Below, in pieces: positions 2,063 to 41,220 of a stretch of DNA of 64,000 nucleotides. Position 1 is the stretch's first letter. Every line of letters starts with the position of its first letter. Source of the DNA: Malus domestica (taxonomy: Eukaryota; Streptophyta; Magnoliopsida; Rosales; Rosaceae); NCBI RefSeq assembly GCF_042453785.1, contig NC_091677.1, positions 4,311,501 through 4,375,500 on the forward strand, read 5' to 3'. The notes beneath the pieces are model-generated. The model was not told where the DNA came from, searched no databases, and was given only the letters and a program-made list of their open reading frames with translations. The position numbers and the translations under genes are program-made.

Positions 2063-2427
2063 TGTTGATGCATAAAACTGGAGGGCCTTGGAACAACGTA
2101 AATCCGACCGTGAATCTGCAAGAAAGTAAATAGCACAAGATGTATCGTGGTTCACCCCAAGGTTTGGACTACGTCCACACTGATATTGTATTTCTGAGAG
2201 GATTGAGAGGGAGAGGGAGAGAACCTCTGTATATGAAGAGGCTTTGAGAGGGGTGATAAGGCTTAAGAAATGACCTCCTCTAATTGTGAGGGTGATGAGT
2301 CATTTTATAGAATAAGGGCTCCTCACTTATTACATATTTACTCATTCCTTTATTACATAATTACATTTAAGTTCCTCGAGTATTTGTACGAAATCTAAAC
2401 ACGGAGGCCCTAAGTATGGTATAAACA
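2063..2427 (-). repeat. Element C, 3' LTR (left copy)
   Basis: On the minus strand it starts TGTTTATACC and ends GCATCAACA. The same sequence, diverged, is found at 5888-5953 plus 19096-19384. The segment near the LTR 3' end (GTGAACCACGAT, AATCCGACCGTG in plus orientation) is shared with element B. Confidence 0.9.
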
Positions 2428-2639
2428 GTAGTCGCCCAAGTCTACAGTCAAGAGAGTCTTTTGGCTGGAGACATGAAATTCAGTCCATGTGTGGGCCGAA
2501 GTAACTAGATGTCGTCTAGAATTGATACTCGATATGAGGCGGTGCCCAATATGAAATGATGGTCAACTAAAAGTAGCACATGTTGTGAGGCTGTTCTGCT
2601 TGTGGCTTATGTTGCCTTAGTTGGCTCGACTTGTGGTGT

Positions 2640-2990
2640 TTGAAGGTGAGGGAGTCCCTTTTATAGAATAAGAGTTCGCTCCTCAATACATAAATATGGG
2701 CTAGAGTTGATGTTCGCAGTGAGGCGGTTGCTCAGTAGGCGGCGATGCTCTCTAATGATGGTGAGTGAGTCCCTTTTATAGAATAAGGAATCGCTCCTCA
2801 ATACACGAATAATGAGCTAGAGTTGATACTCTCTAATGATGGTGAGGGAGTCCCTTTTATAAAATAAGGGCTCACTCCTCAATACATAAATAATGGGCTA
2901 GAGTTGATGCTCTCTAATGATGGTGAATGAATCCCTTTTATAAAATAAGGGCTCGCTCCTCAATACATAAATAATGGGCTAGAGTCCCCC
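2640..2990 (-). repeat. 81-bp tandem repeats carrying a TATA-like core (element C tail)
   Basis: Four copies near 2645, 2759, 2840 and 2921 each contain CCCTTTTATARAATAAG in plus orientation; on the minus strand this reads CTTATTYTATAAAAGGG. The same core is the presumed TATA region of the family's LTR (36959-36965 in B). The repeats therefore look like multiplied LTR promoter pieces. Element B has three equivalent copies at about 39900-40110. Confidence 0.75.
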
Positions 2991-2994
2991 AAGT

Positions 2995-3120
2995 ATTTTT
3001 CATAAGGCCCAGTTGAGGCCCAATATATGGTACATAATGTAGTCCCCCAAGTCTTCGGTCAATAAAGTCTGTTGGCTGGAGACTTCAAATTGAATCCATG
3101 TATGGGTCGAAGTGACGGTT
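2995..3120 (-). repeat. Internal duplicate of polypurine tract plus LTR start (element C)
   Basis: In plus orientation GGTACATAATGTAGTCCCCCAAGTC is followed by sequence matching the true PPT flank at 2420-2520 (TTGGCTGGAGAC, TCCATGTRTGGG). A degenerate LTR beginning thus lies inside the element, about 600 bp from the real one. Element B has the same arrangement at 39771-39880. Confidence 0.65.
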
Positions 3121-3139
3121 GTTCGGATGTGGTATTTGT

Positions 3140-3480
3140 ATACCCTGCACTGAAGCTTTGTAAGTGAAGCTTTGCAAGTTGAAGCTTTGAAGTTAGAGCT
3201 CTGTAAATGTAGCTTTTGAAGCTAGAGCTCTGAAGCTTTCGAAACTGGAGCTTTTGTAAATGAAGTTTTTGAAGCTAGAGCTCTGTAAATGAAGCTTTTG
3301 AAGCTAGAGCTCTGTAATTGAAGCTTTTTGAAGCTAGAGCTCTGAAGCTTTCAAAGCTGGAGCTTTTGTAAATGAAGTTTTTGAAGCTAGAGCTCTGTAA
3401 ATGAAGCTTTTGAAGCTAGAACTCTGTAATTGAAGCTTTTTGAAGCTAGAACTCTGTAAATGAAGCTTTTGAAGCTGATT
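3140..3480. repeat. GAAGCTTTTGAAGCTAGAGC minisatellite (element C)
   Basis: Many imperfect copies of GAAGCTTTTGAAGCTAGAGC and TCTGTAAAT. The homologous block in element B (about 39629-39735) is only about a third as long, so copy number varies between family members. The AAGCTTC core also recurs in element A at 15150-15400. Confidence 0.85.
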
Positions 3481-3665
3481 AACATGAGCGATGCTCATGA
3501 ATGTTTATGTTGATTGACATGAGTGATACTCATGGATGTTGACATGAGTGATGCTCATGAATGTTGACATGTGTGATGCTCATGAATGTTTATGTATGAT
3601 TGATATGAGTGATGCTCATGAATGTTTATGTATGATTGACATGAGTAATGCTCATGTATAATTTG
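3480..3665. repeat. ATGAGTGATGCTCATGAATG tandem repeats (element C)
   Basis: At least six units of a roughly 20-40-bp repeat containing the inverted pair CATGAG/CTCATG. The same module, reverse-complemented, is at 39450-39630 in element B. Confidence 0.85.
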
Positions 3666-3840
3666 AAATACTTGGCGTACTTTTGGTCACCTAGTTAGTG
3701 ATAATAGCGGCAGGTTGCCGAATAATTTTGGAGTACTGGGCGTACTTTTGATCACCTGGTTGGTGGTAATAGCGGCAGGTTGCCGAATAATTTTGGAGTA
3801 CTGGACGTACCTTTGATCACCTGGTTGATGCTATTTTGGG
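3662..3840. repeat. 65-bp tandem repeats (element C)
   Basis: About three copies of a unit with GGCGTACTTTTGRTCACCTG and AATAGCGGCAGGTTGCCGAA, the latter containing a short inverted repeat. The matching module in element B lies at 39270-39440. Confidence 0.85.
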
Positions 3841-4249
3841 CTTATGGGCCTTCGCCTTCCACAACATGTCAGCCCATTTATTTTGGGCTTTTTTTTAACC
3901 CTCTGATGGGGTTTATACAGATGTCTCCAAAAGATTAAAAAAAAAATTTTACATCATTCAAAAATAAGAAAAGTAAATCACATCATTCTTGTGGGGTGTT
4001 CATTCCTTGCTTTTGCAGTGTCCCCATGTGCCTCCTTTTTGCTTTTGTTTTTCTATTTTGCTTTTGCTTTTAGTTTCTCTTTTCTGCTTTTGTTTCTCAT
4101 GTGCTCCCGATGAGAGCTCCCATTTTTTTTCATGATTAATGCTTACAGATTTTATTTATGGCTGATGAGCTGTCAGCAATACCCACTTGGAATGACACAG
4201 CTCACTCCAGCTAACATTTGAACTTGAGCAGACTAAAAAATGTACATAC

Positions 4250-4512
4250 CTTCAGGGTGAAATCTCATGTATGAAGACAAATTGTACACGCGGCCTTTTA
4301 GAACAATCCACATTGAATCTCCTTTTTGGTGCAAACTTCATTCAGTGAAATGAGCCTCTTATTTGACCGTCCCTTTAAGCCTGTAAGGTCTGGATGTGTT
4401 GCAGCCCAATCTTTTGAAGGCGCGGTGGAGGCTGAGGATTTGCGTCGTCTAGTAATTCCATTTGCACGAGCCTGTGTAACTGACTGGCGAAGATTATTAA
4501 CATCAAGACCCT
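4250..4512 (-). pseudogene. Captured fragment of a cytochrome-b5-domain gene (RLF-like)
   Basis: The minus-strand translation contains [14 protein letters not shown] and, after a frameshift at the A-run near 4323, [22 protein letters not shown]. This matches the start of a cytochrome b5 haem-binding fold, whose usual motif is HPGG; here the first Gly is Glu. It resembles plant RLF-type cytochrome b5 proteins from memory. Similarity ends exactly at GTATGT (4249 downward), which looks like a splice donor, so the captured piece may run into an intron. It lies in sense orientation within element C. It cannot encode a functional protein. Confidence 0.6.
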
Positions 4513-4692
4513 AATTTGCTGTTTCCTCTAGGTAATAAGGAACAAAAGAATCGCCAAACAGAGATATCGCAGCCGAATAGAATGGGTATTGTGGGACTGG
4601 GAGAGGGCGATAATGAACTGGAAGGAGAAGTTGAAAGATGAGTTGGTGATAATGAACTGGAGGCTGATCGAGTATGCCAACCTCTTGTAAAT

Positions 4693-4953
4693 CTGACCAT
4701 AACCAGTAATAATCGACGTGTAGACAACAATATCTTTTTCAGTAATTTCATCCAACACTTCAGTTGCATCTTTAACAAACCCACATCGAGAGTATAACCC
4801 CATAAGCGACGAACCCATAAATCCATTTGAACTACACCCAGACTTCAAAGCATCCCCATGGATCCCTCGTCCGAATCCCAAATCCCCCAACTCGATACTT
4901 TTCAAAGCAAACGTAATGGTGTCGCTATCCAACCCGATATTCCACCGCCTCAA
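4693..4953 (-). pseudogene. Captured fragment of a pentatricopeptide-repeat (PPR) gene
   Basis: The 87-residue minus-strand segment shows typical PLS-type PPR spacing: GRGIHGDALKSG, then LMGLYSRCGFVKDATEVLDE, then KDIVVYTSIITGYGQ. In intact plant genes these belong to organellar RNA-binding proteins with many such repeats; only about two and a half are present here. The frame stays open, but upstream and downstream sequence is unrelated, so breakpoints lie near 4953 and 4693. It is in sense orientation within element C. The PPR call is firm; the exact donor gene is unknown. Confidence 0.75.
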
Positions 4954-5218
4954 ATATATGTATCGTTATCCAGAGAGACAGATACTTGGGGACGATGGAG
5001 GTGGGTTGTCTGGGCTTGGGCCTAGATTCGGGTAACCTGGCGCTGGCTGGATCGCAGCCGCTGATTTCATTGGCGGGTAGGTCGGACGACGTGTGGGCTT
5101 GAGAGAGGGTGAAGAGGAAGAAGAGGGTGGCAACGGTGAGGATGAGCTCTTCCGCTGATCTGGGAAATCGACGGTGGTGATGAACGAAGCCCCACAAGTT
5201 AAAAACGGGACATCGACG

Positions 5219-5374
5219 TGGAATGGAGTCACTGCGCTCGCCGGGGAGTTGATCGAGCAGGGACCAGTCAATGCGGGCAACATGGTCGACGAGGGTGGAA
5301 GCCTGTAGTCTTAGTACCAGAGGAGCCTCTCGCGCGACGGGGTTGGCTGTGGCGGGTAAGGCTTCTGCACCCAT
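5219..5374 (-). pseudogene. Captured fragment resembling the N-terminus of a plant pfkB-type kinase
   Basis: Minus-strand translation contains LQASTLVDHVARIDWSLLDQ followed by PGERSDSIP. I recall this signature from the N-terminal region of plant pfkB-like carbohydrate kinases, where it precedes the sugar-kinase core. Only about 50 residues are present, so the catalytic part is absent. The downstream segment to 4966 is open in a second frame but unrecognised. It lies in sense orientation in element C, next to the primer-binding-site end. The family assignment rests on memory and is moderate. Confidence 0.5.
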
Positions 5375-5867
5375 TTTCCTGGCATCCTAGCTCTTTGGGA
5401 ATCGGTACTCTGCTCTCTCTCGCACTAGACCCGACCCGACCCGTACCACCAACCATAAACCTGCATCTCACCTGTCCACCAGTCGCATCACTAGCTTGAT
5501 CTACTCCTACGGGCCGAATCTATCGTAACCCGTATAAAGTCCTCAGCATTTTTTTCTTTTATGAGCTTTTAGAGAGAGAAAAAAAAATATAGGTCATGGA
5601 GCTCTGAAGTGCAGCCATGGCTGCCATTTTCTCGTTGCTTGGCTCTGACTGTGACAGAAATGGATAATACAGAGAAGCAGTATCGTGTCAGAGGGAGATG
5701 TGATGCGAGGGTTTAGAATGTATTTGAGTCTTCCTTTGTCATTCTCGTTGTGTGTTTAGAGAGAGAAAAAAAGGGAGAGAGAGAGTATTTGGTTTCCTAG
5801 GTTTTTTGCAGATTTTTCAGATTATGTGAAAAAAATGAAAGAGAACCGACACAACTTTTCGTATCGG

Positions 5868-5885
5868 TTCTCACAGACGGCGCCA
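5868..5885 (-). other. Primer-binding site of element C
   Basis: On the minus strand TGGCGCCGTCTGTGAGAA starts two bases inside the LTR end at 5888. The first nine bases match the complement of a plant tRNA-Asp 3' end; the rest does not. The same site with minor changes is used by element A (6438) and element B (37227). Confidence 0.75.
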
Positions 5886-5887
5886 AA

Positions 5888-5953
5888 TGTTGATGCACAT
5901 AACCGGAGAGGTCTTGGAACAACGTAAATCCGACCGTGAATCTGCAAGAAAGT
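5888..5953 (-). repeat. Element C, 5' LTR, distal piece
   Basis: Sixty-six bases homologous to 2063-2130, cut off at AAAGT by the insertion of element A. The rest of the LTR resumes at 19096. Confidence 0.9.
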
Positions 5954-6435
5954 TGTTTGTACCATACTTGACCAATCCCGAAACTACTGAGCACCGGTCA
6001 ACGTTATACCGTCAAGGACCCAGAAGAGCTTCCCTTCAACCAGGAGGCCAATCACAATACGACACGTGTCAACATCAGAAGCCAATCACAACGCGACACA
6101 TGTCAACATCAGAAGCTAATCACAACACGACACGTATAAATAGGAATCATTCTCCCACAATAATATCTAATGTCATTTTGTACTAAACTATTCACTAGAA
6201 CTCACAAAAGGAGAGTTTGAGCCTATGTATTTGTGTAAACCCTTCACTATCAATGAGAACTCCTCTACTCCGTGGACGTAGCCAATTTGGGTGAACCACG
6301 TACATCTTGTGTTTGCTTCCTTGTCCCTATTCATTTACGTACTTATCTTCACTAGTGATCGAAGCAACCAAGCAAAGGTCACAAACCTAACACTTTATGT
6401 TGTACCAAAGTCCTCGCTGATTTTGTGCATCAACA
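5954..6435 (+). repeat. Element A, 5' LTR (482 bp)
   Basis: Starts TGTTTGTACC and ends GCATCAACA. It contains about two and a half 34-bp repeats with ACACGTGTC (G-box/ABRE-like) at 6047-6134, followed directly by TATAAATA at 6135-6142. Compared with the 3' LTR it lacks 34 bp between these repeats and the TATA box. One G-box is mutated to ACATGT. Confidence 0.95.
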
Positions 6436-6437
6436 TT

Positions 6438-6452
6438 TGGCGCCGTCTGTGG
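6438..6452 (+). other. Primer-binding site of element A
   Basis: TGGCGCCGTCTGTGG begins two bases after the 5' LTR. Nine bases are complementary to the 3' end of plant tRNA-Asp, the primer used by Athila/Tat elements. The CTGTGG extension does not fit that tRNA but is conserved in elements B and C. Confidence 0.75.
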
Positions 6453-6589
6453 AAAACGACACTTATTCCCACTCTCTTCAGCTTTGTCAAGCTGGTTTCC
6501 ACCGCTCGTACACTCTCTTTTGGCCAGAGAGCGAAAGAAGCCATAACACACAGAATGACACCCCCCTTGGACCTAGTATGAAGCAATGA

Positions 6590-9500
6590 AAGCAGGAAGG
6601 AAATAGGGTTACTCTTCAAGCTAAAGTTGATAAGCTAGAGGTTCAGAACAACAAGATAGCGATGAAGAATGAGGTCCTCCAGGAACAATATGAAAAACTT
6701 TTCGAGATGCTTCCACCTGAGACAGTAGACTCATTTGAAGAGTTGGGGAAACTGTTTGTCTCTCAACACATCTTCTAGACCGATCGCTTGCATTCTGCAT
6801 ATGACTTGTACACTATTCGCCAGAAGCCGGACGAGTCATTACGAAAGTATGCTGGCCGCTTTAGCCATGAGTATTCTCGCTGCGTTGAGGCAGATGACAA
6901 GACCTCCCTCAAGGCCTTCACGGCAGGCTTACGTGACTGTTTCTTCAAGTACATGATCAATGCCAACACTTGGAAGACTTACTCTGAGGTAATGGCACAA
7001 GCTTACAACCATGCATCCGCCGAGGCAAGGACATATCAAGGGAAACCCCCTACAGTCACCCCTTATCAGCAAGTAGGGAGTGGAGGCCAGATCCAACCGA
7101 ATGAGAAGACTTCAACCTTCCAAACGGTAGCAGCACATCCACCTGCCTCATTTAATGCTTCGCCAAGTCAGCAGACATATCAATCCCAGGGCAAAAGGAA
7201 AGATTTCCATCCTCACCAATCTCATTTTAATAAAAAGAATAAGGGGCACTATCGCGATAACTCAGGATATCGTCACAATAACGCCCGTCCCCAGGCAGTT
7301 AACTCAGTGGGCCAATCACGTGTCAAGACATGCCCTACCCCAAGGTATGAGACATACACACCTTTAAACGCTACATGCGTGGCCATCTACCCCAGTATAG
7401 CTCACCTGATACCAAAGCCAAAGCCAAGACAGCCAGATTACAAGTCCACGAAGAACACGGGCATGTTTTGCTGCTACCACGAGTATAATGGCCATGATGG
7501 CGAGAAGTGCATCATCCTCCGTGATCATATTAAAGCTTTGGCACGTGAAGGAAAAATTGATCAATTCCTCCTTCACCCTCCAAGGGATAACCGTAACCAA
7601 CGCCAGGTGAATGTGATATATTCCATAAGCGGCGATACACCCATGTCTGAATCTTTCAATAGGGCCATGAAAAACAGTGAACGAACTTTAAGACCTGGCC
7701 ATTAAGTGTTTCACGTGGAAGACATCAGGGGAGGCAAGTATCAAAAGCCTAACTGGGATCCAATATGTTTCTACCCTGAGGAAGAAAGAGGTATCATCTA
7801 CCATCACAACGACCCGCTGATCGTGGAGGCTCACACAGTAAATTTTGATGTGAAACGAATCCTGATAGACACAGGTGCTTCAGTCAATATCATGTTTGCT
7901 GAAGCTTTCAAGGCACTTAATGTAGCTGAACACTTGCTCAATCGCTCGATTTCTCCTCTGATAAGCTTCTATGGCGATATCGTACAACCTTTAGGGAGTA
8001 TACACTTACCCCTCACCATTGGTACAGGCCCCTACATAGCTACTATTACCACTAACTTCCTAGTGGTTAATTGCCCGACGGCATACAATGTCATCTTTGG
8101 GCGCACATGCATCAATGATCTCAAGGCCATGGTATCCACACATATGTTATTGATGAAGTTTCCAACCCCTTTCGGCAATGGATACATCAGGGGAGATCAA
8201 CTTAGTGCTCGATCATGTTACAACACTTCAGTTAAGCAACAACACCTGTCTGTCCCCAAGGAGACCCTCTCTATACATAACCAGGTAGTAAAGACCAGTC
8301 CAGATGAAGCCAACTCGGATCTTCATGATGGCAATAGTCAACCCGACGACCCTCGAGATGACTCCTTCACCCAGCAAGCACAACCCCTTGAAGAGTTAGA
8401 GAATGTCTCTATCTCCAAAGACCATCCAAATCGCATAGTGAAGATTGGCACCACTTTGTCACCACCCTTTCGGTTGTCACTGATCTCCTTTTTACAAGAG
8501 AACGCCAAGGTCTTCGCTTGGTCATATAAAGATATGTCGGGCATCTCTCCCGATATCATCTGTCACCACTTCAGTATTGATCCCAAAACCAAACCAGTAA
8601 AACAGAAGCGAAGATCATATGATGTTGAACGATACGAGGCGATGAAAGCAGAAGTTGAAAAACTCAAGGACATAGGCTTCGTCCGTGAAGTCAATCACCC
8701 AACATAGGTAGCAAATGTTGTTCTTGTTAAGAAAAATCCGACCAAGGAAAGTCTCATGCTTCAAAAGGTCTTGTGGAGAATGTGTGTCGACTTCACAGAC
8801 CTAAACAAAGGATGCCCGAAGGATAGTTTCCCTCTTCCTCTCATTGATAGACTTATAGACTCTACGGCAGGCTGTGAGCTCTTGAGCTTCATGGACGCTT
8901 ATTCAGGATACAACCAAATCCTCATGAACCCCTCAGACCAAGAACACACGGCCTTCACTACTGACAGGGGACTATATTGCTATAAAGTCATGCCTTTCGG
9001 CCTAAAGAATGTAGAAGCAACTTATCAGAGACTGGTCAATTCAATGTTCGCCGAACAGATTGGGAAGAGCATGAAAGTTTACGTTGATGATATGCTAGTT
9101 AAGAGCAAACATGCTGACCAACACATCACCAACCTATCTGAAACTTTCACCATTCTAAAGAGGTATCGAATGAGGTTGAACCCCAACAAATGTGCCTTCG
9201 GCGTGGGCTCTGGCAAATTCTTAGGCTTCATGATTAGCCAACGAGGCATTGAAGCTAACCCCGAAAAGATCAAAGCAATCCTCGACATGAAAGAGCCAGT
9301 AACTTCAAAAGACATCCAAAGCCTTACTGGCAAGGTGGCAGCCTTAACCAGATTCATCTCTAAGGCCACAGACAGATGTGCTCTTTTTTTCAAAGCACTC
9401 AAGGGAAATAAGAAGTACATTACATGGATGGAGGAATGTGCCAAGGCATTCAGGAACCTCAAAGAGTACATGAGTAAAGCCCATCTGCTCTCCAAACCAG

Positions 9501-11662
9501 AAATTGGTGACACTCTCATTATCTATCTATCGATTTCAGCTTCAGCAGTCAGTTCTGTTTTTATTCGAAAGGACAGTGGTGTCGAACGGCCCGTCTACTA
9601 CGCTAGCAAGGCCCTACAAGATGCGGAGACACGATACTCCAACATTGAGAAATTAGCTATAGCATTGGTTATGTCTGCTTGAAAACTTCGCCCATATTTC
9701 CAAGCACACGCCATCATCATGCTTACCAATCACCCTCTTCGACAGATACTCCAGAGTCCTGACACGTCTGGGCGAATGATCAAATGGGCGATAGCATTGG
9801 GTGAGTTTGACATCTCCTACTAACCAAAACCAACCGAAAAGGGTCAAGCAGTAGCAGATTTCATCGCCGACTTCACATATCCTGTTGACATTGCTTTTAC
9901 ACCTGAAACAGTAGCTTCATTACCATTGGAAGCTCAGAAGATAGAATCAACAACCCCAGCATGGAGTCTGTATATTGATGGCTCATCTAACCAACAGGGC
10001 TGCGGAGCAGGATTAGTTATCACTACCCCCAACAAAATGGCGATAGAATACGCTCTTCGTTTCAAATTCAAGGCATCGAACAACGAGGCCGAATACGAAG
10101 CCCTTCTAGCAGGCTTACGTTTGCCCAAGCACCTTGGGGTTAAACATATCTTCAGTGACTCCCAATTAGTGGTCAACCAAGTCACGAACAACTTTGATGC
10201 TAAGGATAGCTCCATGGCAGCATATCTTGCGCAAACACGACTTTTGTTCAAGCACTTCCACTACCAGATCACCCAAGTTCCTCGAGCGGCAACCAGTCAT
10301 GCAGACGCTTTGGCTCGCCTCGCCTTGGCAGTGGAAGACAAGATTGGGAGAAAAAATCATGTCGAATTGTTGGCAGCACCAAGCACCATGGTTGCGGAAA
10401 TGTGCAATTTACAACAAAGAGATAGTTGGATCACCCCAATTTATAAATTCCTTGCTCATGGCACCCTCCCAAATGACAAAGTCCAAGCTAAGCAGATTCG
10501 ATACAAGTCTGCCCACTACCTGATCATTAATGACCAACTCTACAAGTGCGGTTTTACCCTGCCATACTTAAGATGCCTTACACCTGCGGAGGCGGAAATT
10601 ATCCTTCAGGAAATACATGAAGGAGTCTGCGGAGATCATGCTGGGTCTCGATCCCTAGCACACAAGACTTTTCGCCAAGGATACTATTGGCCAACATTCC
10701 ACCAAGATGCCATCAGAATATCTCGCTCATGTGATAAGTGTCAACGTTACGCAACTATCATTCACTCCCCTCCTGAGCCGCTCACTCATATGATTAGCCC
10801 TTGGCCCTTCGCCCAATGGGGACTTGATTTGATCGCCCCAATGCCTGCAGGGAAGGGCAAGGTCTGCTATGCAATCGTTGCAGTTGACTACTTCACAAAG
10901 TGGGCTGAAGTAGAACCCTTGGCAACCATTACTGAGGTAAAAATAGAAGATTTGGTATGGAAGAACATCCTCTGCAGATTCGGCATTCCCAATGCGATAG
11001 TCATGGACAATGGGCGGCAGTTCGACAACAAGAAGTTCAGGATGTTCTGCTCTAAGTTCAACATCAACTTATATTTTGCCTCTCCAGCCCATCCCCAGTC
11101 TAATGGAAAAGTCGAGGTCGTTAACAAAATAATCAAGTGCACTCTGAAAACTAGCTTGGACAAAGCTAAAGGTTGTTGGCCAGAATTCGTACCCCAAGTT
11201 CTTTGGTCATACCGCACTTCATATCGGACTTCCACAGGAGAAACTCCATTCTCACTTGCTTTTGGTACAGAAGCAGTTGTCCCGGTTGAGCTTGAGCAAG
11301 CAACATACCGAATCCAGAACTACATGCAGAGTGAGAATGACAAACAACTCACCCTTAACCTGGATCTAGTCGAGGAACACAGAAATCAGGCTCACCTGAG
11401 GAATGTCGCCTACAAGCAGCGCATCTCCAACTACTACGACTCAAGGGTCAAACCTCGCTCTTTCAAAGTGGGAGACTGGGTACTGAAGAAAAGATTACTC
11501 TGCGATAGAGTCCCGAGTGAAGAAACACTCAGTCCTAACTGGGACAGATCGTTCGAGATTGTCGGCATCAGCCGCCCTGGCTCCTACAAGCTCAGAAGCT
11601 CCGACGGCAAGACTCTTAGCTATCCATAGAATGCTGACCACTTGAAGTACTATTACAAATAG
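6590..11662 (+). pseudogene. gag-pol polyprotein of element A, interrupted by stops
   Basis: All recognisable domains lie in one frame. They are: a coiled-coil start (about 6590-6730); a retrotransposon gag domain (from about 6780, SLRKYAGRFSHEY); a CxxH...HDGEKC zinc-knuckle-like segment (about 7465); protease with DTGAS (about 7868); reverse transcriptase with FTDLNKGCPKDSFPLP (about 8790) and catalytic YVDD (about 9081); a first RNase H; a second RNase H-like domain with YIDGSSNQQGCGAGL (about 9972); and integrase with HHCC finger (about 10617-10745) and DDE core (D in GLDLIAP, D in MDNG, E in NGKVEVVNK). In-frame stops lie at 6777, 7703, 8705, 9680, 9822 and 11627. At least five could be C-to-T or G-to-A changes. 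The product would be a virus-like-particle polyprotein; this copy cannot make it whole. Confidence 0.9.
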
Positions 11663-12046
11663 ACTCACATTGTACAAGTGTTAAGCTACAGCCGTTCGAC
11701 ATCCTATGTAACAAAGACCATTTGGTATGAATTCAATAAAGAGGTGATTTAGCCAACTCGGCCCTAAACTCTTTTACATTCTGAGCAATGAAACACTCAA
11801 GTGTTGAAGCTTCAACGCAAATATTTCCAATACAAAATAAAATCTAAGTATGTGTCAACAAGACTATACAAATGATCTATGCAAACATAGCCAAACATTC
11901 ATAAATGATAGGGCAAACACTTGAAGCTTGATAATACACTTATAAACATGCAAAACAAAAAAAAACTCTCAGGCTTATAACATGGCACATGCCATACAAA
12001 CAACAAACTAGTGTAGGTAGAGTACATTCAGAAAGTGAAAGCACTT
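11663..12046. other. Spacer between pol and antisense gene of element A
   Basis: AT-rich non-coding sequence. AATAAA at 11734-11739 and AATAAA-like motifs near 11836 may act as poly(A) signals for either strand. No ORF is supported. Confidence 0.4.
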
Positions 12047-14365: not shown

Positions 14366-14783
14366 CTACAATAAACAGAAACAAACTCTATCACTACATG
14401 AAGGATCAAAACATAAGGAAGCTCATAGGGCATGAAGAAAAGCTCAACCAGTTCATTATGTTCTTAACAAAATACATAAACACTCAAACAATTCAACAAG
14501 AATGAAAACATCTGATCTAGTGGAGAAGACTACCAACCTGAAGATGGTACAACAAAACAATGCCAGAATCCCTCTCAAGTAAAGAGCACTATGTCTTAAA
14601 AAATCACTACAAGATAAGCAAATGAAGACAAGGTAAATAATGAAAACTTACTCTTCTCATATATAGTTCTACATAGCTATTAACATTCCAAATTCAAATT
14701 CAAACCATGAGAAAGCCTCACATGAAAAATCTTCAAACTTCTAACACTAGGGAGTTCCAAATTTCAAATGTTTCAGTTCCCCT

Positions 14784-14850
14784 CTTCAAAAAAAAAAAAA
14801 AAAACCGAAAAAAAAATTCCGAACAAAAAAAAAAAAAAAAAAAAAAAAAG
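14784..14850. repeat. Poly(A) tracts in element A
   Basis: Two long A runs separated by AACCG-like interruptions. They create a spurious lysine-rich ORF. A second low-complexity block of AAATTCGAAAATTC units lies at 15430-15540. Confidence 0.9.
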
Positions 14851-14868
14851 GGAAGGGGGAACACAGCA

Positions 14869-15155
14869 GCTTCATCAATGAGATTCAACTACCAATCTCA
14901 AAAAGCTTCGCACTATCTTCATCAAGATAGTGTGAAGCAAGATCAATTTATGGTGCCAACAAAAGCTTCATCAATGGAGGACAAATATCAATCTCAAAAG
15001 CTTCGCACTATCTTCATCAAGATAGTGTGAAGCAAGATCAATTTATGGTGCCAACAAAAGCTTAATCAATGGAGGACAAATATCAATCTCAAAAGCTTCG
15101 CACTATCTTCATCAAGATAGTGTGAAGCAAAATTAATTTATGGTGCCAACCAAAG
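14869..15155. repeat. 95-bp minisatellite with internal hairpin (element A)
   Basis: Three near-identical units begin at 14869, 14965 and 15060. Each contains CACTATCTTCATCAAGATAGTG, a perfect 9-bp stem (CACTATCTT/AAGATAGTG) with a four-base loop (CATC). A partial fourth occurrence of the hairpin region lies near 15310-15345. Confidence 0.9.
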
Positions 15156-15400
15156 CTTCACCTATAAAGCTTCAAAACCAAAGCTTCACCTATAAAGCTT
15201 CAACACCAAAGCTTCACTTATAAAACTTCAACACTAAAGCTTCACCTATCAAGCTTCAACCCCAAAGTTTCACCTACAATACAAAATTTCAACACCAAAA
15301 CATATAAAAGCTTCACACTCTTCATCAAGATAGTGTGAAGCAAAATTAATTCATGGTGCCCAACAAAGCTTCAACCTCAAAACTTCACCTACAAAGCTTT
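15150..15400. repeat. AAGCTTCA-rich tandem repeats (element A)
   Basis: Repeats of roughly AAGCTTCACCTATAAAGCTTCAAC. The AAGCTTC core is also the basis of minisatellites in elements B and C. Confidence 0.8.
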
Positions 15401-18565: not shown

Positions 18566-18579
18566 ACTTAGGGGAGCAT
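18566..18579 (+). other. Polypurine tract of element A
   Basis: ACTTAGGGGAGCAT sits immediately before the 3' LTR start TGTTTGTACC, where the plus-strand primer should be. Confidence 0.6.
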
Positions 18580-20804: not shown

Positions 20805-20815
20805 TTCATTTCCGG

Positions 20816-31672: not shown

Positions 31673-31678
<6 letters not shown>

Positions 31679-31721
<43 letters not shown>

Positions 31722-32525: not shown

Positions 32526-32556
<31 letters not shown>

Positions 32557-35500
32557 TGGAGAGATTGTCTTTCTTTCTTATGTTTTAATGTAATGATTCG
32601 AGATATTGTGTTGCACTCAGTTTAGCACTTTGTATTTTTTACTTAGATGCTGCAAGCGCATTCAGCTCATTCACACCAGATACTGCATCCATCGCTTCAA
32701 GCATCAAATACCACGCAGAGTTCACCCCGTTGTTTTCTGCGGAGCAATTTGAGCTTCCAAAGGCCTTCTATGCAACTGCACAAAGTGTTCGTGATGCGCT
32801 CATTGTTAACTGGAATGCAACAAATAATTATTATGAAAAATTGAATGCAAAGCAGGCATATTATTTGTCAATGGAATTTTTGCAGGTTTGTCATCAATTC
32901 CCTGTATTTGTTTCCCACAAGTGTGGATGTGCATTTCTGTCACCTATAACTGCAATATGCCTCGTTTCATAAAGTTCTGTCTTTGCAGGGTAGAGCGCTG
33001 TTAAATGCCGTTGGTAATTTAGAGCTAGATGGTGCATATGCTGAGGCTTTAAGCAAGCTTGGACACAAGTTAGAAAATGTTGCTAACCAGGTGAGGTTCT
33101 GGCTAAGTCTCTTACTTTTTCGTCAAAATTTTGTTACGGACATTCATATTAATTTTGCATTATTAGCAACCATGCACTTCTATTAATGTCTGTCATGGCC
33201 CTCATTCTTCTCTGCATACTTTGTGTTTGTGTGTTGGTGCAACCAACTTATATAGATTATTTGATTATAGGAGCCGGATGCTGCACTTGGAAACGGGGGT
33301 CTTGGTCGGCTTGCCTCTTGCTTCTTGGACTCTTTGGCGACTTTAAATTATCCGGCTTGGGGTTATGGACTCAGGTACAAGTATGGCTTATTTAAACAGC
33401 AAATTACGAAAGATGGTCAAGAAGAAGTTGCTGAGGATTGGCTTGAGGTATGCATGCTTTCTGTTTTTATATTTCGCTTCAACGACTTCACTTTCTTTAA
33501 AGGTTTTTGGTGAAATCGTTATTTCTTATTAGTTGCTGAATCTTGCAGATGGGAAATCCATGGGAGATTGTGAGAAATGATGTCTCCTATCCAATAAAAT
33601 TCTATGGAAAGGTTGTTACTGGATCGGATGGAAAACGACATTGGATTGGAGGAGAAGACATAGATGCTGTTGCCTATGATGTTCCAATACCAGGATACAA
33701 AACTAAAACCACGATCAACTTGCGGCTTTGGTCGACGAAAGCTTCATCACAGGATTTTGATTTATATGCTTTTAATTCTGGAGAACACACGAAAGCATCT
33801 GAAGCTTTAGCAAATGCTGAAAAGGTTGTATATTGTGCTCCTTTCCTTCGGTTTCCTTTCAGTTTTCTTTATTTTCCAATTTCCCCTTTAACTGCTCCAA
33901 AGAAAACAGGTTTGTGTCCGCTTATGATTTCATAAATCTTTCTTGTAATGAATGTGGTTTTCATCAGCCCTCAGTCGATTTGATCCGAAAATATAGATTT
34001 CCGGTTTTATATTTGTTTTTCCAATGATTAACAGATTTGCTACGTACTTTATCCTGGGGATGAATCAATGGAGGGCAAGACACTTCGTTTGAAGCAACAA
34101 TATACCTTATGCTCTGCTTCTCTTCAAGATATCATTGCACGTTTTGAGAGAAGATCTGGAGCAAATGTCAAATGGCAAGAGTTCCCCGAGAAGGTCGCAG
34201 TGCAGATGAACGATACTCATCCAACCCTCTGCATTCCTGAACTGATGAGAATTTTGATTGATTTGAAGGGCTTGGACTGGAAGGAGGCGTGGAATATTAC
34301 TCAAAGGTAACACCTTTTGTGATTATGTAGGAAGACTTGTTAGTGGTACATGCTTAACTGTAGCAACTTCTTTCGCCTTACATCCTGTCACGTGTGTTCT
34401 AGAACGGTTGCATATACAAACCATACTGTTCTACCTGAGGCCTTGGAGAAATGGAGTTTGGAACTTATGGAGAAACTGCTTCCTCGACATGTTCAGATCT
34501 TAGAGATGATTGATGAGGAGGTAAAGCAGGACCGTGTACTAAATTCAAACAGTTCTTTACCTTTGGAGATTTTAAATTTATGGATTTCTTGTGTTTGCAA
34601 ATTCTGCAGCTCATTCAGACCATAATTTCGGAGTATGGCACAGCGGACTATGATTTAATAGATAAGAAACTTAAGGAGATGAGAATATTAGAAAATGTTG
34701 ACTTGCCTGCCAAATTTGCGGATTTGATTGTTAAACCCAAAAAGAGTTCCATTGCTGTTCCCAGTGAAGAAATTGAAGATTCAAAAGAGGAAGATGAGTC
34801 TGCTGATGAATCTGCTGATGAAGAAAACGTACCTGTGAAGAAACACGAAGAGGAAAAAAAGAAAAAGGTTGTGGTGGAACCACCGAAGTTAGTACGTATG
34901 GCGAATCTGTGTGTTGTGGGTGGTCATGCGGTAAATGGTGTTGCTGAAATACACAGTGAGATAGTGAAAGATGAAGTATTTAATTCATTTTATAAGGTAA
35001 GCCTTGACAGTTTTAGTAAAGACGAGGCTCTTTCAAGGTTCAAAAATTGCTCTTTTATCGATCTCTAACCTGCAAATTTGGCAGTTGTGGCCTAATAAAT
35101 TTCAAAACAAAACAAATGGTGTGACACCGAGAAGATGGATCCGCTTCTGTAATCCAGATTTAAGTAACATTATAACGAAGTGGATTGGCACGGAAGACTG
35201 GGTCTTAGATACTGAAAAACTGGCTGAATTACGAAAGGTAAAACTCATAAGAATGAACAATATGGAGTTTATGTTGACTTTTATACAATTTTTGCAGTAT
35301 CGTTGTTATGGCCATATACTTATCTCTGTTATTTGATTTTGTAATAGTTTGCAGATGATCAGGACCTCCAAACCCAATGGAGGGAAGCAAAAAGGAACAA
35401 CAAGTTGAAAGTTGTGTCGTTGATCAAAGAAAGAACGGGATATTCTGTCAACCCTGATGCAATGTTCGATATACAGGTATTTTCTATGCATTCAAATCTC

Positions 35501-38500
35501 CTCCAAATGTGTATTAAATAGATGGAAGCCTGCACAGCCAACTTCACGCATAGTTGGTTTATTCACTGCACAAATTTCCTTGTGTTTCTCATCATGCCTC
35601 AATCAAAGTTTTCTTTTCTTATTCGCATGCTTCTGTTCAGGTGAAGCGCATTCATGAATACAAGCGACAACTGATGAACATTATGGGAATTGTTTACCGC
35701 TACAAGAAAATGAAAGAAATGAGTGCTTCGGAAAGGAAGTCAAAGTTTGTTCCACGAGTTTGTATGTTTGGAGGAAAAGCATTTGCTACGTATGTGCAAG
35801 CCAAGAGAATTGTGAAATTTATCACAGATGTAGGGGCAACAGTGAATTGTGATCCTAGTATTGGTGATCTACTGAAGGTATCGATATCTTTGGTGTTAAT
35901 AGTGTCCTGGCATTAACAACATGATAAAAACAAGTGATTTGCAATGCTTTATTGACTTACAGTAAATATAAGTTGGCTCTGTAAAAGAACAAACACACAC
36001 AATATCTTTACATGCGTGTATTTTCGATTTGCTGTGAGTTCATCTGAATTACTGACCCACTAATTTATATTATCAATTGTCATATTAGGTTGTCTTCGTC
36101 CCTGATTACAATGTCAGTGTTGCTGAACAGTTAATTCCTGCAAGTGAGCTCTCACAGCACATCAGGTAATGTGGTCTTATTCGTTATATGATTCGTACTT
36201 CCGCTGGCCACATGCTTTTTCTGTCTGCGAGGGGTATATAAGTGGAGAAGCATCAGGAATTGGTTTTAAAAAAAATTCCACAGCTTAAGTTTTAAGCAAT
36301 AATTGATATTTTAGTAAGAAAAAAGGGGTTTGGCTGGGTTTGCGAGAATAGCCAAGAGTCAAATTCAAGCAGATTAGCTGGGGAAGTTATAGTTTTCGCC
36401 GTAGCCAACTTGAAGTCCATCGATTACACTTGTAACTTGTAGACTAGAGAGTTCAGAGCATTGTGTATTAAACTAACAATCTAGGTGAGCCTTCCTTGTG
36501 CTGGATAATATATCATGGGATCTTACTCGTACAAGGCGTGGAACTTGAGCGGGAATGACTTCAATGGAACTGATTGAAGCTAAACATACACGCAAACCAA
36601 CTGTTAATCGACCTTTTTTCAATTGTTATTTATTTGTAGTACCGCGGGGATGGAGGCCAGTGGAACCAGCAACATGAAGTTTGCAATGAATGGCTGCATC
36701 CTAATCGGGACTCTGGATGGTGCCAATGTTGAAATAAGAGAAGAGGTTGGAGAAGACAACTTTTTCCTATTTGGTGCTGAAGCTCATGAGATTGCTGGGC
36801 TGAGAAAAGAACGAGCCGAGGGGAAGGTTTGTCTGAATAACCAAATTGTTACTTTTGTTTATACCATATTTAGGGCCTCGTATATTTGGGCCTTGGGCCT
36901 TGTATTTGGGCCTCACACTAAAGCCCATACTTTGTAAAAGAGGAGGAGCCCCTTATTCTATAAAAGGGGACTCCTACCCTCATTCTAGGGGAGAGCTCAC
37001 TCTCACTCTCGGAGGCCAATTTCTGGAGCCTTCTCACCCCCTCTCAAAGCTCTTCACTCACAGAGTTCCTTCTCTCACAAATACTCTCAGATAAATACAT
37101 ATTCAGTGTGGACGTAGCCCAAACCTTGGGGTGAACCACGATAACTCTTGTGTCATTTACATTTCATGCAGATTCACGGTCGGATTTACGTTGTACCAAG
37201 ACCATCCGGTTTTGTGCATCAACATTTGGCGCCGTCTGTGGGAATCGACACAAAAAGCTATGTCGGTTCTCTTTCATTTTTTTCATCACCGCCATGAATC
37301 TGCAGAAACCAAGAACCCAAATCTTTCCCAGAAAATCCCCACAAACAACAAGCCACCATGTTATCTCCTCTCTTTTTCTCTCTCTATTTGTTTCTGTATC
37401 CTCATATAGAGATCTGATAAATAGTGTTTGGTGGTGTAAAGATACAAATCGAACGGTCCAGATCAACCCCAAACTTCTTCACCTCCGTGTGTTTCTGAAG
37501 CGCCAGATATCAACCCCAACCTTCTTCGTCCGACAAACTTAAAAAGCGGCAAAGCTTCATCCCAGGGTCGCTGATCGACCTAGCCCGATCGCGGGGCATC
37601 GATCTCGTTCGGATCGACACTAAGCACTCGCTGGCAGATTGGGAAGCGTTCGAACCTGACGAAGATGATGAATGGGTCAGGCCATGGACCAGGTCCGCAC
37701 TCTCGGGTCATAGATCGGGTCATGAACCGGGTCAACGACGCCCGCCTGGAGAAAGCTCTGGCCGTCTGCGAGGACCTGTTTGAGGACACGATCGATCAGC
37801 TCAATGATTCGCCGACCTCCGCCGACAGCACTACAAGAAGCTTCAGTCACCAAAAGATTGGGTGCGCAGAGAGATTTTGTATGTATGTAAGCCACCCGTT
37901 GGTCCATCCAGAAGAGGCCCCGCCCACGACTAAAGCGACAGCCCAGAACGCTCTCAGAGTGAGAATAAAGGACGTCCAAGGCATGCCTGGCACCCTCAGT
38001 GGGCTCGCCCTGCATCTCTGCCACCACAACTCTCACGACCCGTTTGCATTTCTCGGGTCTGATGGGTTAAGACCTTCTCGAAATGATGCTGTCGAGACTA
38101 CCAACATCTGCCTTCTTCCACCTTACTTCAGTGTGCAAAAGATGGAAATCAGGTGCATCTTCTCCCAGTTTTAAGCTTGCCTGCTCTCAGATCCCATTTC
38201 GGGATCCATGGTTTTTTAGAGTGTGAGAAAGCTGTAGTTAGTCATCCTGAACCCCACGATCTGAACTACCACCTACTACGCCGTCCGCCATGGGGCCCAC
38301 GCCATCCTCACTCTCCTCCTCCTTGCTGAGATCACGAGCGGCTGCCAGAACGCCTGGACCCTTACCTGGTTTCGAAGGGCCGGTTCGCCTACCGCAAACA
38401 AGCATGTTTCCTTCTGAAAAAAAAAGCTTTACAGAACAAATGGACGCAAATGATAGTATGGAAGTGGGAGAAAAGCATGAGAATGGTGGAAATGTTGAAG

Positions 38501-39178
38501 ATGCATTGCAATCAACTGATGATCATGCAACTGTAGCCAATGAACAAGAGGAGGAAGTTTCTGATTTTCCATTAGAACGCTGCATGAGGATAGTCCCACA
38601 TGATCAAAACGGAGGAGCTTTCTTTATTGCTGTCTTCCACAAACATTCTGCTTTGCCAGGAGCGAAGCAGCAATTTCTCGAGGCATTCATCAACAAGAAA
38701 AGCAGAAAGCAGCTGTCACTTTGGCTGCAATTATTACCACGGAAATATCAGTGTTAAAACCAACTGGAGTCATAAAAGCTATGGATACCAAGCAGCTGTC
38801 ATTTTAGAGAAAAGCAAGAAAAGCAATGGCAATTAAAAGGTTAAAGTCAGATGGTCTCCAAGGCCATAGAACATGGGTGGACAGAGAATGAGCAGAAAGA
38901 GAAAGCAAAAGCAAAAGATTATTCCCTTGTCTGTCATCTGCCAAAAGAAAGAAAAATAAAGAGAAAGCAAAAAACAAAAGCAAAAGAGAAAAGCAAAAGA
39001 TTTTTCTATTATTATGATTTCTTACCAGGTGAAGATATAGAGAGAGGGCATCAGAAAAACACTGCAAAAGCAAGGAATAAACACCTCACCCGAATGATGT
39101 AATTTATTTTTATTATCTTTCGGAGACATCTGTATAAACCCCATCAGAGGGTAATATGTATAAACCCCATCAGAGGGT

Positions 39179-39214
<36 letters not shown>

Positions 39215-41220
39215 AAAAGCCCAAAACAAATGGCTGACATGTTGTGGAGGGCAAAGGCCCATAGGCCTGAAATAGCACCAACCAGGTCATCAAAAGTACG
39301 CCCAGTACTCCGCAATTATTCGGCAACCCGCCGTTATTACCACCAACCAGGTGATCAAAAGTACACCCAGTACTCCACAATTATTCGGCAACTCGCCGCT
39401 ATTACCACCAACCAGGTGATCAAAAGTACGCCCAGTACTTCAAGTCATACATGAGCATTACTCATGTCAATCATACATAAACATTCATGAGCATCACTCA
39501 TCCAATCATACATAAACATTCATGAGCATCACTCATGTTAACATTCATGAGCATCACTCATGTTAACATCCATGAGCATCACTCATGTCAATCAACATAA
39601 ACATTCATGAGCATCACTCATGTCAATCAGCTTCAAACAGCTTCATTTACAAGAGCTCTAGCTTCAAAGACTTCATTTACAGAGCTATAGCTTCAAAGCT
39701 TCACTTGCAAAGCTTCACTTACAAAGCTTCAGTGCATGGTCTACAAAGACCGCCTCCGAACAACCGCCACTTCGGCCCATACATGGATTCAATTTGAAGT
39801 CTCCAGCCAACAGACTCTATTGACCGAAGACTTGGGGGACTACATTATGTACCATATATTGGGCCTCAACTGGGCCTCATGAAAAATATTTGGGGGACTC
39901 TAGCCCATCACTTATGTATTGAGGAGTGAGCCCTTATTCTATAAAAGGGAATCCCTCACTTTCATTAGAGAGCACCCATTATTCATGTACTGAGGAGTGA
40001 ACCCTTATTCTATAAAAGGGACTCCCTCACCATCATTAGAGAGCATCAACTCTAGCCCATCATTCATGTATTGAGGAGCGAGCCCTTATTCTATAAAAGG
40101 GACTCCCTCACCTTCAAACGCCGCAAGTCGAGCTAACCAAGGCAACATAAGCCACGAGCCGAGCAGCCTCACAGCATGTGCTACTTCTAGTTGAGCATCA
40201 TTTCAGATTGGGCACCGCCTCATATCGAGCATCAGTTACTTCGGCCCACACATGGACTGAATTTCAAGTCTCCAGCCAAAAGACTCTCTTGACTGAAGAC
40301 TTGGGGGACTACTGTTTATACCATATTTAGGGCCTCGTATATTTGGGCCTTGGGCCTTGTATTTGGGCCTCACACTAAAGCCCATACTTTGTAAAAGAGG
40401 AGGAGCCCCTTATTCTATAAAAGGGGACTCCTACCCTCATTCTAGGGGAGATCTCACTCTCACTCTCGGAGGCCAATTTCTGGAGCCTTCTCACCCCCTC
40501 TCAAAGCTCTTCACTCACAGAGTTCCTTCTCTCACAAATACTCTCAGATAAATACATATTCAGTGTGGACGTAGCCCAAACCTTGGGGTGAACCACGATA
40601 ACTCTTGTGTCATTTACATTTCATGCAGATTCACGGTCGGATTTACGTTGTACCAAGACCATCCGGTTTTGTGCATCAACAACTTTCATTCCCATGTTAT
40701 TGTTTAAGAACTGCCCTTGTGATGCAATTTTGATGTCTCTCTTTATGCAGTTTGTTCCAGACCCACGTTTTGAAGAAGTCAAGGAATTCGTCAAAAGCGG
40801 TGTTTTTGGGTCAGACAATTATGACGAACTGATTGGATCCCTGGAAGGAAATGAAGGATTTGGCCGTGCAGATTATTTCCTCGTCGGCAAGGACTTCCCC
40901 AGTTACATAGAATGCCAAGAGAAGGTCGATGAGGCATATCGAAACCAAAAGGTGAGATAATTCGCGGCATACATACCTCCTTGGTACTGATACATCGCCG
41001 GCATACATTTACTCTGCTGAATCTCAACATGTTTTTATAGCCCTGAGCAATGTTTTGAGTTCATTCGTGGCTAATGTTTTTACCTGTTGTTTTCGGGTGA
41101 CAGAGATGGACGAGAATGTCGATCCTGAACACAGCAGGCTCGTACAAGTTTAGCAGTGACAGAACCATTCACGAATATGCTAATGACATATGGAACATCA
41201 ACCCCGTCGAGTTGCCATAG
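31892..41220 (+). CDS. PHS1: Plastidial alpha-glucan phosphorylase (L-type), 15 exons
   Basis: The enzyme transfers glucosyl units between alpha-1,4-glucans and glucose-1-phosphate in starch metabolism of plastids. Exons, all GT-AG: 31892-32102, 32647-32885, 32989-33090, 33271-33447, 33549-33824, 34035-34306, 34403-34520, 34610-34996, 35085-35237, 35348-35476, 35641-35877, 36089-36165, 36640-36826, 40751-40951, 41104-41220. The sum is 2883 nt, or 960 residues, with no internal stop. Residues 1 to about 65 are Ser/Arg-rich, as in a chloroplast transit peptide. Phosphorylase landmarks: [20 protein letters not shown] (exon 4), MNDTHPTL (exon 6), KRIHEYKRQ (exon 11) and the pyridoxal-phosphate lysine in [10 protein letters not shown] (about K806, exon 13). 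An acidic, lysine-rich insert of about 50 residues in exon 8 (about 508-556, [15 protein letters not shown]) marks the plastidial L-type and is shorter than the 78-residue insert of tuber enzymes. Intron 13 contains element B; without it the intron would be about 93 nt. Confidence 0.96.
32407..32560. repeat. 65-bp tandem duplication plus TG/TA microsatellite in PHS1 intron 1
   Basis: ATTGGTTTGCTGGGAGGG starts two copies 65 bp apart (32407 and 32472). The second ends in an expanded (TG)n(TA)n run at about 32525-32556. Confidence 0.9.
36856..37224 (+). repeat. Element B, 5' LTR (369 bp)
   Basis: TGTTTATACC...GCATCAACA. A TATA box TATAAAA lies at 36959-36965. The U5 end (GTGGACGTAGCC, GTGAACCACG) is shared with elements A and C. 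Confidence 0.95.
37227..37244 (+). other. Primer-binding site of element B
   Basis: TGGCGCCGTCTGTGGGAA, two bases after the LTR. The first nine bases complement plant tRNA-Asp. It matches the site in element A over TGGCGCCGTCTGTGG. Confidence 0.75.
37541..37650 (+). pseudogene. Captured fragment of an inositol-tetrakisphosphate kinase (ITPK) gene
   Basis: The frame beginning at 37544 reads [20 protein letters not shown] followed by [12 protein letters not shown]. This corresponds to the N-terminal segment of plant ITPK1-type kinases (typically QSFIQPSL...A..RGIDLV.ID). Only about 35 residues are present and the ATP-grasp core is absent. It is in sense orientation in element B. The match is by recall. 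Confidence 0.65.
37719..37814 (+). pseudogene. Possible captured pectinesterase-inhibitor-like fragment
   Basis: [20 protein letters not shown] resembles the helix of plant PMEI/pectin methylesterase pro-domains, including the conserved Cys and the D-x-L-N ending. It is short, and the assignment is tentative. It lies between the ITPK-like and CASP-like fragments. Confidence 0.3.
37881..38024 (+). pseudogene. Captured fragment of a CASP-like (CASPL5-type) gene
   Basis: The frame reads [13 protein letters not shown], then [20 protein letters not shown]. This is the cytoplasmic N-terminus and first-helix start of plant CASPL5-type four-transmembrane proteins. Similarity stops after about 48 residues, before the membrane segments. 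It is in sense orientation in element B. Confidence 0.65.
38401..38658 (+). pseudogene. Captured fragment of an NSUN2/TRM4 tRNA methyltransferase gene
   Basis: About 86 residues: SMFPSEKK, an acidic linker, then [20 protein letters not shown] and [11 protein letters not shown]. This is the region just after the conserved catalytic core of plant tRNA (cytosine-5)-methyltransferases of the TRM4 type, whose usual sequence is RxxPHDQNTGxFF; here Thr is Gly. If the native gene has introns within this stretch, they are missing here, which would suggest capture from mRNA. It is in sense orientation in element B. Confidence 0.65.
39181..39212. repeat. Poly(A) run in element B
   Basis: Thirty-two A residues after a duplicated TATAAACCCCATCAGAGGGT (39134 and 39159). 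The corresponding region of element C (3890-3960) has only short runs. Confidence 0.9.
39270..40110 (+). repeat. Tail repeat modules of element B
   Basis: In order: about 65-bp repeats with AGTACGCCCAGTACT (39270-39440); CATGAGCATCACTCAT repeats (39450-39630); AAGCTTCA repeats (39629-39735); an internal PPT plus LTR-start copy (39771-39880); and three repeats of about 75 bp with CTTATTCTATAAAAGGG (39900-40110). Element C has the same modules in the same order with different copy numbers. Confidence 0.85.
40298..40312 (+). other. Polypurine tract of element B
   Basis: GACTTGGGGGACTAC directly precedes the 3' LTR at 40313. Confidence 0.65.
40313..40681 (+). repeat. Element B, 3' LTR (369 bp)
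   Basis: Nearly identical to the 5' LTR and followed by the ACTTT duplication at 40682. Confidence 0.95.

Follow-up and report, generated by a model that had tools for sequence, protein, structure and literature searches.

The capture of host genes by long terminal repeat (LTR) retrotransposons of plants is known from single elements such as Bs1 and Rider and from surveys, as far as the accessible parts of this literature extend. Bs1 is described there as an LTR retroelement into which three unrelated genes of the host have contributed pieces (PMC13317346), and a survey of maize (Baucom et al., 2009; PMC2774510) counted 425 intact LTR elements with gene fragments and at least 189 captures, with no element in its accessible text combining fragments of two or more standard nuclear genes. 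Another survey, again in the part open to us, lists 672 and 1,343 captured genes over many families, and additional open reading frames of plant LTR elements have been treated elsewhere (PMC7264820). The long form of Veju and BARE-2 are chimeras that the available text attributes to template switching between packaged RNAs (PMC13317346). Here we describe a family of LTR retrotransposons from Malus domestica that is represented by two copies, termed B and C, in a stretch of 64,000 nucleotides (contig NC_091677.1, positions 4,311,501 to 4,375,500; hereafter the window). The middle of these elements, which we call the cargo, is replaceable and consists of pieces of several unrelated host genes, some of which originate from spliced or partly spliced RNA. 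It appears that the family samples and reshuffles host genes again and again, with a different patchwork in most of the lineages examined.

Fixed ends and changing cargo

The searches for copies and donors were carried out in the window's own genome (651 Mb, 19 contigs), in which loci are given by contig (such as C1 or C16) and position; labels such as C7a, C10 or C12 refer to copies by their contig, and the lists of donors and copies, drawn from the best 40 candidates of each genome search, are lower bounds. Besides B, we have read 19 copies chosen by their LTR similarity to B, which biases the selection towards young ones, and five stretches taken at even steps (rows 1, 21, 41, 61 and 81) from 100 listed tail junctions with exact matches on contigs 1-3, out of 2,315. 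The LTR-similarity search had provided 20 stretches, one of which (L055) is interrupted and stands outside the resulting 20 copies.

The members of the family share a layout of LTR, primer-binding site (PBS), leader of 60-110 bp, cargo, tail, polypurine tract (PPT) and LTR. Among the 20 copies, the LTR starts with TGTTTATACC and the element ends with CA in 19 each, the PBS is exact in all and the PPT in 17; in B, these sites read TTTGGCGCCGTCTGTGGGAA directly behind the 5' LTR and GAAGACTTGGGGGACTAC directly ahead of the 3' LTR. The 5-bp flanks are identical in 15 copies and form clear target site duplications in 14, with C17b set aside because its flanks are an AT repeat and its 3' LTR is of another kind. 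The copies with clear duplications are young, with LTRs of 357-382 bp that are 0-4 substitutions apart and a total length of 3,496-4,721 bp, and the LTR pair of B shows one difference over 369 sites; the remaining rows are either rearranged or have LTRs in common with a neighbour. The family thus displays the direct LTRs, TG..CA ends, PBS, PPT and short target duplication of an LTR retrotransposon. A Pfam scan of the first 16 cargos, in sense and antisense, and of the five sampled ones, with tails lying outside its range, did not reveal any retroelement domain, and tblastn with gypsy proteins matched only L055, the gypsy element of the window itself and sequence that flanks the C3 copy on its outside (L004, L012). 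The family is non-autonomous and protein-less, with neither gag nor pol.

A pattern of 31 bases across PPT and LTR start, allowing up to three mismatches, occurs 2,315 times in the genome (1,181 and 1,134 times on the two strands) and its reversed control not once. Since it matches exactly once, at the junction of tail and 3' LTR, in each of the 20 copies and of the five sampled stretches, this number counts junctions, not necessarily complete elements. The sequence CTATAAAA, present once in the LTR, is found one to four times in the last 1.3 kb of the interior, and a tail module of 200 bp aligns with the LTR at about 75%. The tail, which the sequence-only reading of the window had described as fixed and modular, is common to the copies but varies in length and module number. 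The same reading had grouped B and C as one family with common LTR ends, PBS and ordered tail around completely different middles, and both statements hold: the LTRs, a leader of 61 bp (90% identical) and the tail align in the same order, and the central segments share no DNA at E 1e-5.

This divergence of the middle extends over the family. Our comparison comprises 21 cargos, with 14 from fetched copies, those of B and C and the five sampled ones, and leaves out C9a, C3- and C3+, which contain the cargo of B, the cargo-less C9b1 and C9b2, in which the tail is reduced to its final portion, and the interrupted L055. With sharing scored as a DNA match at E 1e-5, 168 of the 210 pairs have nothing in common, as do 90 of 120 pairs among the first 16 cargos; the 168 increase to 194 once the 300 bp of cargo next to the tail are disregarded. 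The cargos are 1,307-2,374 bp long (median 1,760) and composed of pieces that mostly span about 100-310 bp and in some cases 480-800 bp. Where cargo is partly shared, as the first 352 bp of C7b and C12 (99%), 565 bp of C16 and C4 (96%) or 360 bp next to the tail of C7b and C8a (97%), the copies have probably exchanged parts. Other cargos have been propagated as they were: the cargo of B is found at at least four full-length loci and partly at a fifth, that of C10 at at least two and that of C8b, wholly or partly, at at least five. On contig C3, the cargo unit of B (about 1,680 bp) is repeated five times in L040/L041 (C3:2099171-2109855) and twice in L042 (C3:2116610-2122262), in opposite orientation about 7 kb apart, with units that are at least 99% identical and have the same joint. 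Jumps back during reverse transcription would explain these tandem units, for which an assembly error may be an alternative.

Host gene pieces and their capture from RNA

The search for donors in eight of the 21 cargos (B, C, C9c, C12, C10, C6, C8b and L070) has located pieces of each at several host loci. A second, less similar locus is often present, as would be expected of duplicated genes, with identities of 94 and 89, 93 and 90, and 96 and 92% for pieces of C (query positions 406-607, 1444-1659 and 1227-1376) and of 95 and 89% for both the NSUN2 piece of B and the NOSIP piece of C10. Together with the many unrelated pairs, these matches bear out the repeated replacement or addition of cargo that had been proposed from the window; the suggested genome search for copies with different host fragments, run in the window's own genome, has found such copies, and the same cargo in all of them, the outcome named as speaking against the proposal, is excluded.

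To the strand of the pieces we assigned Pfam matches at E<=1e-3, with F-box and F-box-like matches of the sampled cargos taken as one, a threshold that removes PMEI, the F-box of B, RsmB/F (the methyltransferase match in a sense frame of B, E 2.5e-3), SR-25, GAPDH, O-antigen_lig, SOR_SNZ, PNISR, DUF1645 and weaker hits. The first 16 cargos contain 11 sense matches (ITPK-N, PPR, Cyt-b5, zf-NOSIP, DNA polymerase alpha N, Hs1pro-1, UVB-sensitive, DUF1117, Aldolase_II, ribosomal S24e and Cyclin_N) and two in antisense, Senescence_reg (PF04520, 1.4e-12), which we place in C7a by its motif, and Pkinase (1.7e-6), placed in C10 by an SnRK2-like peptide. Nine of these cargos hold a sense match, C7a an antisense match only and six none. 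The five sampled cargos contribute seven sense matches (DUF1666, GH17, RGP, tubulin, CA109-like, F-box and Fes1) and none in antisense, resulting in a ratio of 18 sense to 2 antisense (two-sided binomial p=4.0e-4; 11:2 and p=0.022 for the first 13 matches). Matches to PDB sequences include eS24 (7.5e-33), NOSIP (1.5e-14) and, on the antisense strand, an SnRK2-type kinase (1.4e-13). The earlier claim that all pieces run in sense therefore stands for B and C, whose six antisense frames show no Pfam match at E<=1, but is rejected for the family in light of PF04520 and Pkinase. Among the gene names proposed for both window copies, ITPK, TRM4/NSUN2, PPR and cytochrome b5 are supported by Pfam or PDB, with only ITPK-N and Cyt-b5 reaching Pfam's own cut-off, whereas the pieces at 37855-38023 and 5220-5421, which we take to be CASPL5- and pfkB-like, lack a Pfam match and align with host loci at 85 and 94%. 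In B, three gene pieces had been recognised, where we find about five (ITPK-, CASPL5-, F-box- and NSUN2-like and an unnamed one matching C16:7757375).

The origin of the pieces from RNA is illustrated by alignments of cargo with four donor genes, each taken both with and without its introns. Five introns are exactly missing from the cargo, with GT..AG borders on the gene strand and no gap at the exon joint, which implies capture from RNA for these four donors. They comprise an intron of 160 bp in a donor on C8, presumably an endoplasmin-like gene, one of 107 bp in a C13 donor without a name, two of 103 and 601 bp in an SnRK2-like kinase gene on C15 that was captured in antisense, and one of 555 bp in the C7 gene that supplied the cytochrome-b5 piece of window copy C, in which the exon behind the intron directly follows some 20 bp of the exon ahead of it. 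The subsequent intron of the latter gene is retained in C for about 80 nt, and its location behind a removed one in the same piece suggests partly spliced RNA. In the cargo of L043, positions 495-975 correspond to an SnRK2-like kinase cDNA in antisense with two introns out; a piece both spliced and antisense shows that mRNA can be the source of antisense capture as well. The beginning of several pieces lies ahead of the ATG (as judged by eye and uncounted), in keeping with a polymerase that tends to copy its template as far as the 5' end. We have not counted gaps in the C12 donor as introns, since they were placed by eye in a repetitive open stretch, lack GT..AG ends and look like cargo deletions. 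Over 790 bp, the cargo of C12 matches a single repetitive gene region, L060 (C6:30370550-30371850), with three deletions inside the match.

Template switching as the probable mechanism, and its alternatives

We consider template switching, in which the reverse transcriptase of a helper moves between packaged RNAs and onto host mRNAs, as the likeliest mechanism and, judged from the sequences, as quite probable. A related Ty3/gypsy element would provide the proteins that package and copy the element RNA, and host mRNAs would be packaged with it. During minus-strand synthesis, the reverse transcriptase would jump from the element RNA to an mRNA, on which it may run towards the 5' end, then to another mRNA and finally return to an element RNA at its leader, thus leaving serial pieces in sense. 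The rare antisense pieces may result from jumps in plus-strand synthesis, and jumps between element RNAs may underlie shared half-cargos and tandem cargo units. Selection would maintain the ends and may also favour a middle in the range of roughly 1.3-2.4 kb, for which the cargo would serve as replaceable filler. Whether cargo turnover is the normal life cycle of the family, with a middle of this size being only filler that is refilled with fragments of host mRNA by template switching, is a more tentative proposal, which we regard with slightly more doubt than trust.

A candidate for the helper, to judge by its sequence, is the Ty3/gypsy element nested in C. Its LTR end and PBS are 84% identical to those of the family over 69 columns, and the PPT-like tracts look alike by eye. 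In the sampled stretch L067 (733-1333 in element orientation), gypsy interior, PPT-like tract and gypsy LTR are directly joined to the leader of the family, with a damaged PBS, so that a gypsy LTR stands where the family's own 5' LTR would be. Recombination or template switching between both RNAs would generate such a joint, although a single case is no proof of co-packaging.

Several observations weigh against these proposals. The helper itself is inferred, and L055, tried as autonomous partner, turned out to be a copy of the family with gypsy insertions next to it. The two antisense matches and the partly retained intron also count against them. The donors of the intron alignments were picked because their matches looked split or intron-bearing; being no random sample, they demonstrate the occurrence of capture from RNA and not its frequency, and pieces that cross no intron are uninformative. 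Six of the first 16 cargos are without a Pfam match, leaving part of the cargo without assigned source, and the pieces of 480-800 bp, together with the non-random choice of intron cases, lower our confidence in template switching. Finally, L051 (C9:19099500-19109400) contains two cargo-less units in tandem (C9b) with an interior of 871 bp and shared LTRs, which speaks against a strict need for filler if this form has ever moved.

Of the competing explanations, the insertion of processed cDNAs made elsewhere, for example by enzymes of long interspersed nuclear elements, into integrated copies, with the chimeras subsequently amplified as LTR elements, fares best. It would equally yield spliced pieces in both orientations; as it predicts neither the 18:2 bias towards sense nor serial short pieces confined between leader and tail, we deem it improbable. 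We regard as still less credible a capture at the DNA level, where genomic fragments acquired via Helitrons, Pack-type transposition or break repair would have been carried on by the element. Elements of this kind typically hold short fragments from many genes, and the partly retained intron of C would be in line with this route, but the five introns precisely missing in four donors, for which we reject DNA capture as the main route, and the sense bias argue against it, and the retained intron comes right after one that was spliced out, an arrangement to be expected of partly spliced RNA. Read-through transduction, in which genes flanking an inserted copy are transcribed and copied with it, is reported for Rider and a terminal-repeat retrotransposon in miniature (TRIM) in the accessible text of one source (PMC13317346); here, it is highly unlikely, since the pieces of a single cargo match several chromosomes in the cargos searched and are located between leader and tail instead of outside an LTR. 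One ancestral capture followed by divergence, to which the copies with common cargo might point, is excluded by the donors, as cargos without shared DNA match different host loci, many at 90-98%, in copies whose leaders and tails still align.

With a young family whose ends are fixed and whose multi-gene cargo differs, retro-capture can be quantified within one genome, with respect to junction microhomology, 5' bias, donor expression and the balance of minus- and plus-strand jumps. Such a family may contribute to exon shuffling, confuse the annotation of genes and give rise to small RNAs directed at many genes of the host. If cargo turnover is indeed its way of life, its thousands of copies would record which mRNAs surrounded the element during its replication, and would supply, on a large scale, chimeric transcripts driven by the LTR and small RNAs with matches to the donors.

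The window copies and known systems

The features of both copies and of the remaining window are collected in Table 1. B is located in sense inside a glucan phosphorylase gene (33540-40957), between exons, with PF00343 on either side of it and flanking open stretches that correspond to positions 449-528 and 620-681 of the Pfam phosphorylase. Among the matches listed, its ITPK piece has no ordinary host locus, the best being other element-like loci. Of the two CASPL5-like loci, the one at C10:38749265 has matches to the leader next to it and might therefore belong to another copy of the element. The flanks of C do not form a perfect target duplication (GGGGT and GAGAT, compared by eye).

Table 1. 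Coordinates of the elements B and C, their gene pieces and other features of the window
Feature	Position	Strand	Remarks
B, target site duplication ACTTT	36851-36855 (left), 40682-40686 (right)		
B, 5' LTR	36856-37224	+	369 bp
B, PBS and leader	37225-37310	+	end approximate; 60-110 bp common to other copies
B, ITPK-like piece	37541-37639	+	Pfam PF17927 (ITPK-N) 6.7e-5; PDB sequence match 1.2e-4
B, PMEI-like piece, weak	37734-37838	+	Pfam E 5.7e-3, below cut-off
B, piece matching C12:17952435	37855-38023	+	85%
B, F-box-like piece	38061-38217	+	Pfam 1.1e-3; C10:2202662 at 96%
B, unnamed piece	38268-38395	+	C16:7757375 at 92%
B, NSUN2/TRM4-like piece	38401-38660	+	C1:12026151 at 95%; PDB NSUN2 8.5e-7
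B, tail with U3-like TATA modules	39062-40312	+	start approximate; ends in PPT 40295-40312
B, 3' LTR	40313-40681	+	369 bp
C, 3' LTR	2063-2427	-	
C, tail	2428-4021	-	
C, cytochrome-b5-like piece	4168-4400	-	Pfam Cyt-b5 6e-7; donor C7:1621000-1621792
C, unnamed piece	4451-4600	-	C16:7129653 at 96%
C, PPR-like piece	4692-4965	-	Pfam PPR 4.6e-4 at 4729-4812; C9:3980365 at 90%
C, piece with 5' untranslated region and gene start	5220-5421	-	C8:1992801 at 94%
C, PBS and leader	5827-5887	-	
C, 5' LTR, second part beyond nested insert	5888-5953	-	92% to 3' LTR of C
C, 5' LTR, first part	19096-19384	-	87% to 3' LTR of C
Nested Ty3/gypsy element, separate from C	5954-19095	+	13 kb; duplication AAAGT at 5949-5953 and 19096-19100
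Open frame of 726 codons	24040-26217		FAR1, MULE and SWIM domains
Tandem repeat	41555-42045		period about 168 bp, 88-90% identical
Two 389-bp repeats (97%) around one open frame	54198-57047		copia gag, gag_pre-integrs, Pol_BBD; no reverse transcriptase found in that frame
Open frame of 1,302 codons	57996-61901	-	Rx_N, NB-ARC, LRR; disease-resistance-like gene
Long imperfect palindrome	62184-62670		own reverse complement 72% over 495 columns; possibly a foldback element

The distinct layout of the family separates it from several established classes. TRIM elements have LTRs of about 100-250 bp and a length under about 2 kb, both of which are exceeded here. Large retrotransposon derivatives contain a large non-coding internal domain that is conserved between copies, whereas the middle of this family is not conserved, with most cargo pairs sharing nothing. 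Pack-MULE, Pack-CACTA and Helitron elements are bounded by terminal inverted repeats or Helitron ends and hold genomic cargo with introns, and the family differs by its LTRs, its 5-bp duplications and the introns missing in four donors. Its likeness to Pack-type transposons and Helitrons (PMC13317346) concerns fixed ends and exchangeable gene-fragment cargo, whereas their movement and capture proceed as DNA. The TGTT/AACA subfamilies of Rosaceae, described in the available text as young, present in apple and relatives and including two families without coding regions (PMC5659011), are Copia/Ale elements with TG..TT or AA..CA ends, in contrast to the TG..CA ends and gypsy-like PBS found here. 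The nested element, with gag, reverse transcriptase, RNase H and integrase and an antisense frame downstream of pol that weakly matches PF04195 (E 0.0069), resembles by these features alone the Ty3/gypsy elements of the Retand lineage, for which the accessible text reports such an antisense frame (PMC11963269). It has LTR ends and PBS in common with the family, which unlike Retand does not code for proteins.

The closest systems are thus those that combine LTRs with captured genes. Of the two parallels drawn by the sequence-only reading, the one to Bs1 is the better fit, given RNA capture in the four testable donors, and the one to Pack-type elements the poorer. As in Bs1, to which we liken the family by description only, several host gene pieces without introns reside inside LTRs, apart from the one intron partly retained in C; Bs1 is presented in the available text as one element with one cargo, whereas here most lineages examined have their own and 2,315 junctions are found. 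The chimeras of Veju and BARE-2 differ in their partner, which the accessible account gives as another retroelement or unknown DNA in place of serial pieces of host mRNA. Unlike the maize elements in the portion of that survey at hand, the cargos searched here match several loci each, and the available description of the survey with 672 and 1,343 captured genes does not mention a family with fixed ends and changing mosaic cargo. The literature searched, which covers few subscription papers and no preprints, contains no description of such a family. Gene capture by LTR elements is hence a known process, but its repetition across an entire family, with the replacement of multi-gene cargo between constant ends, looks new.

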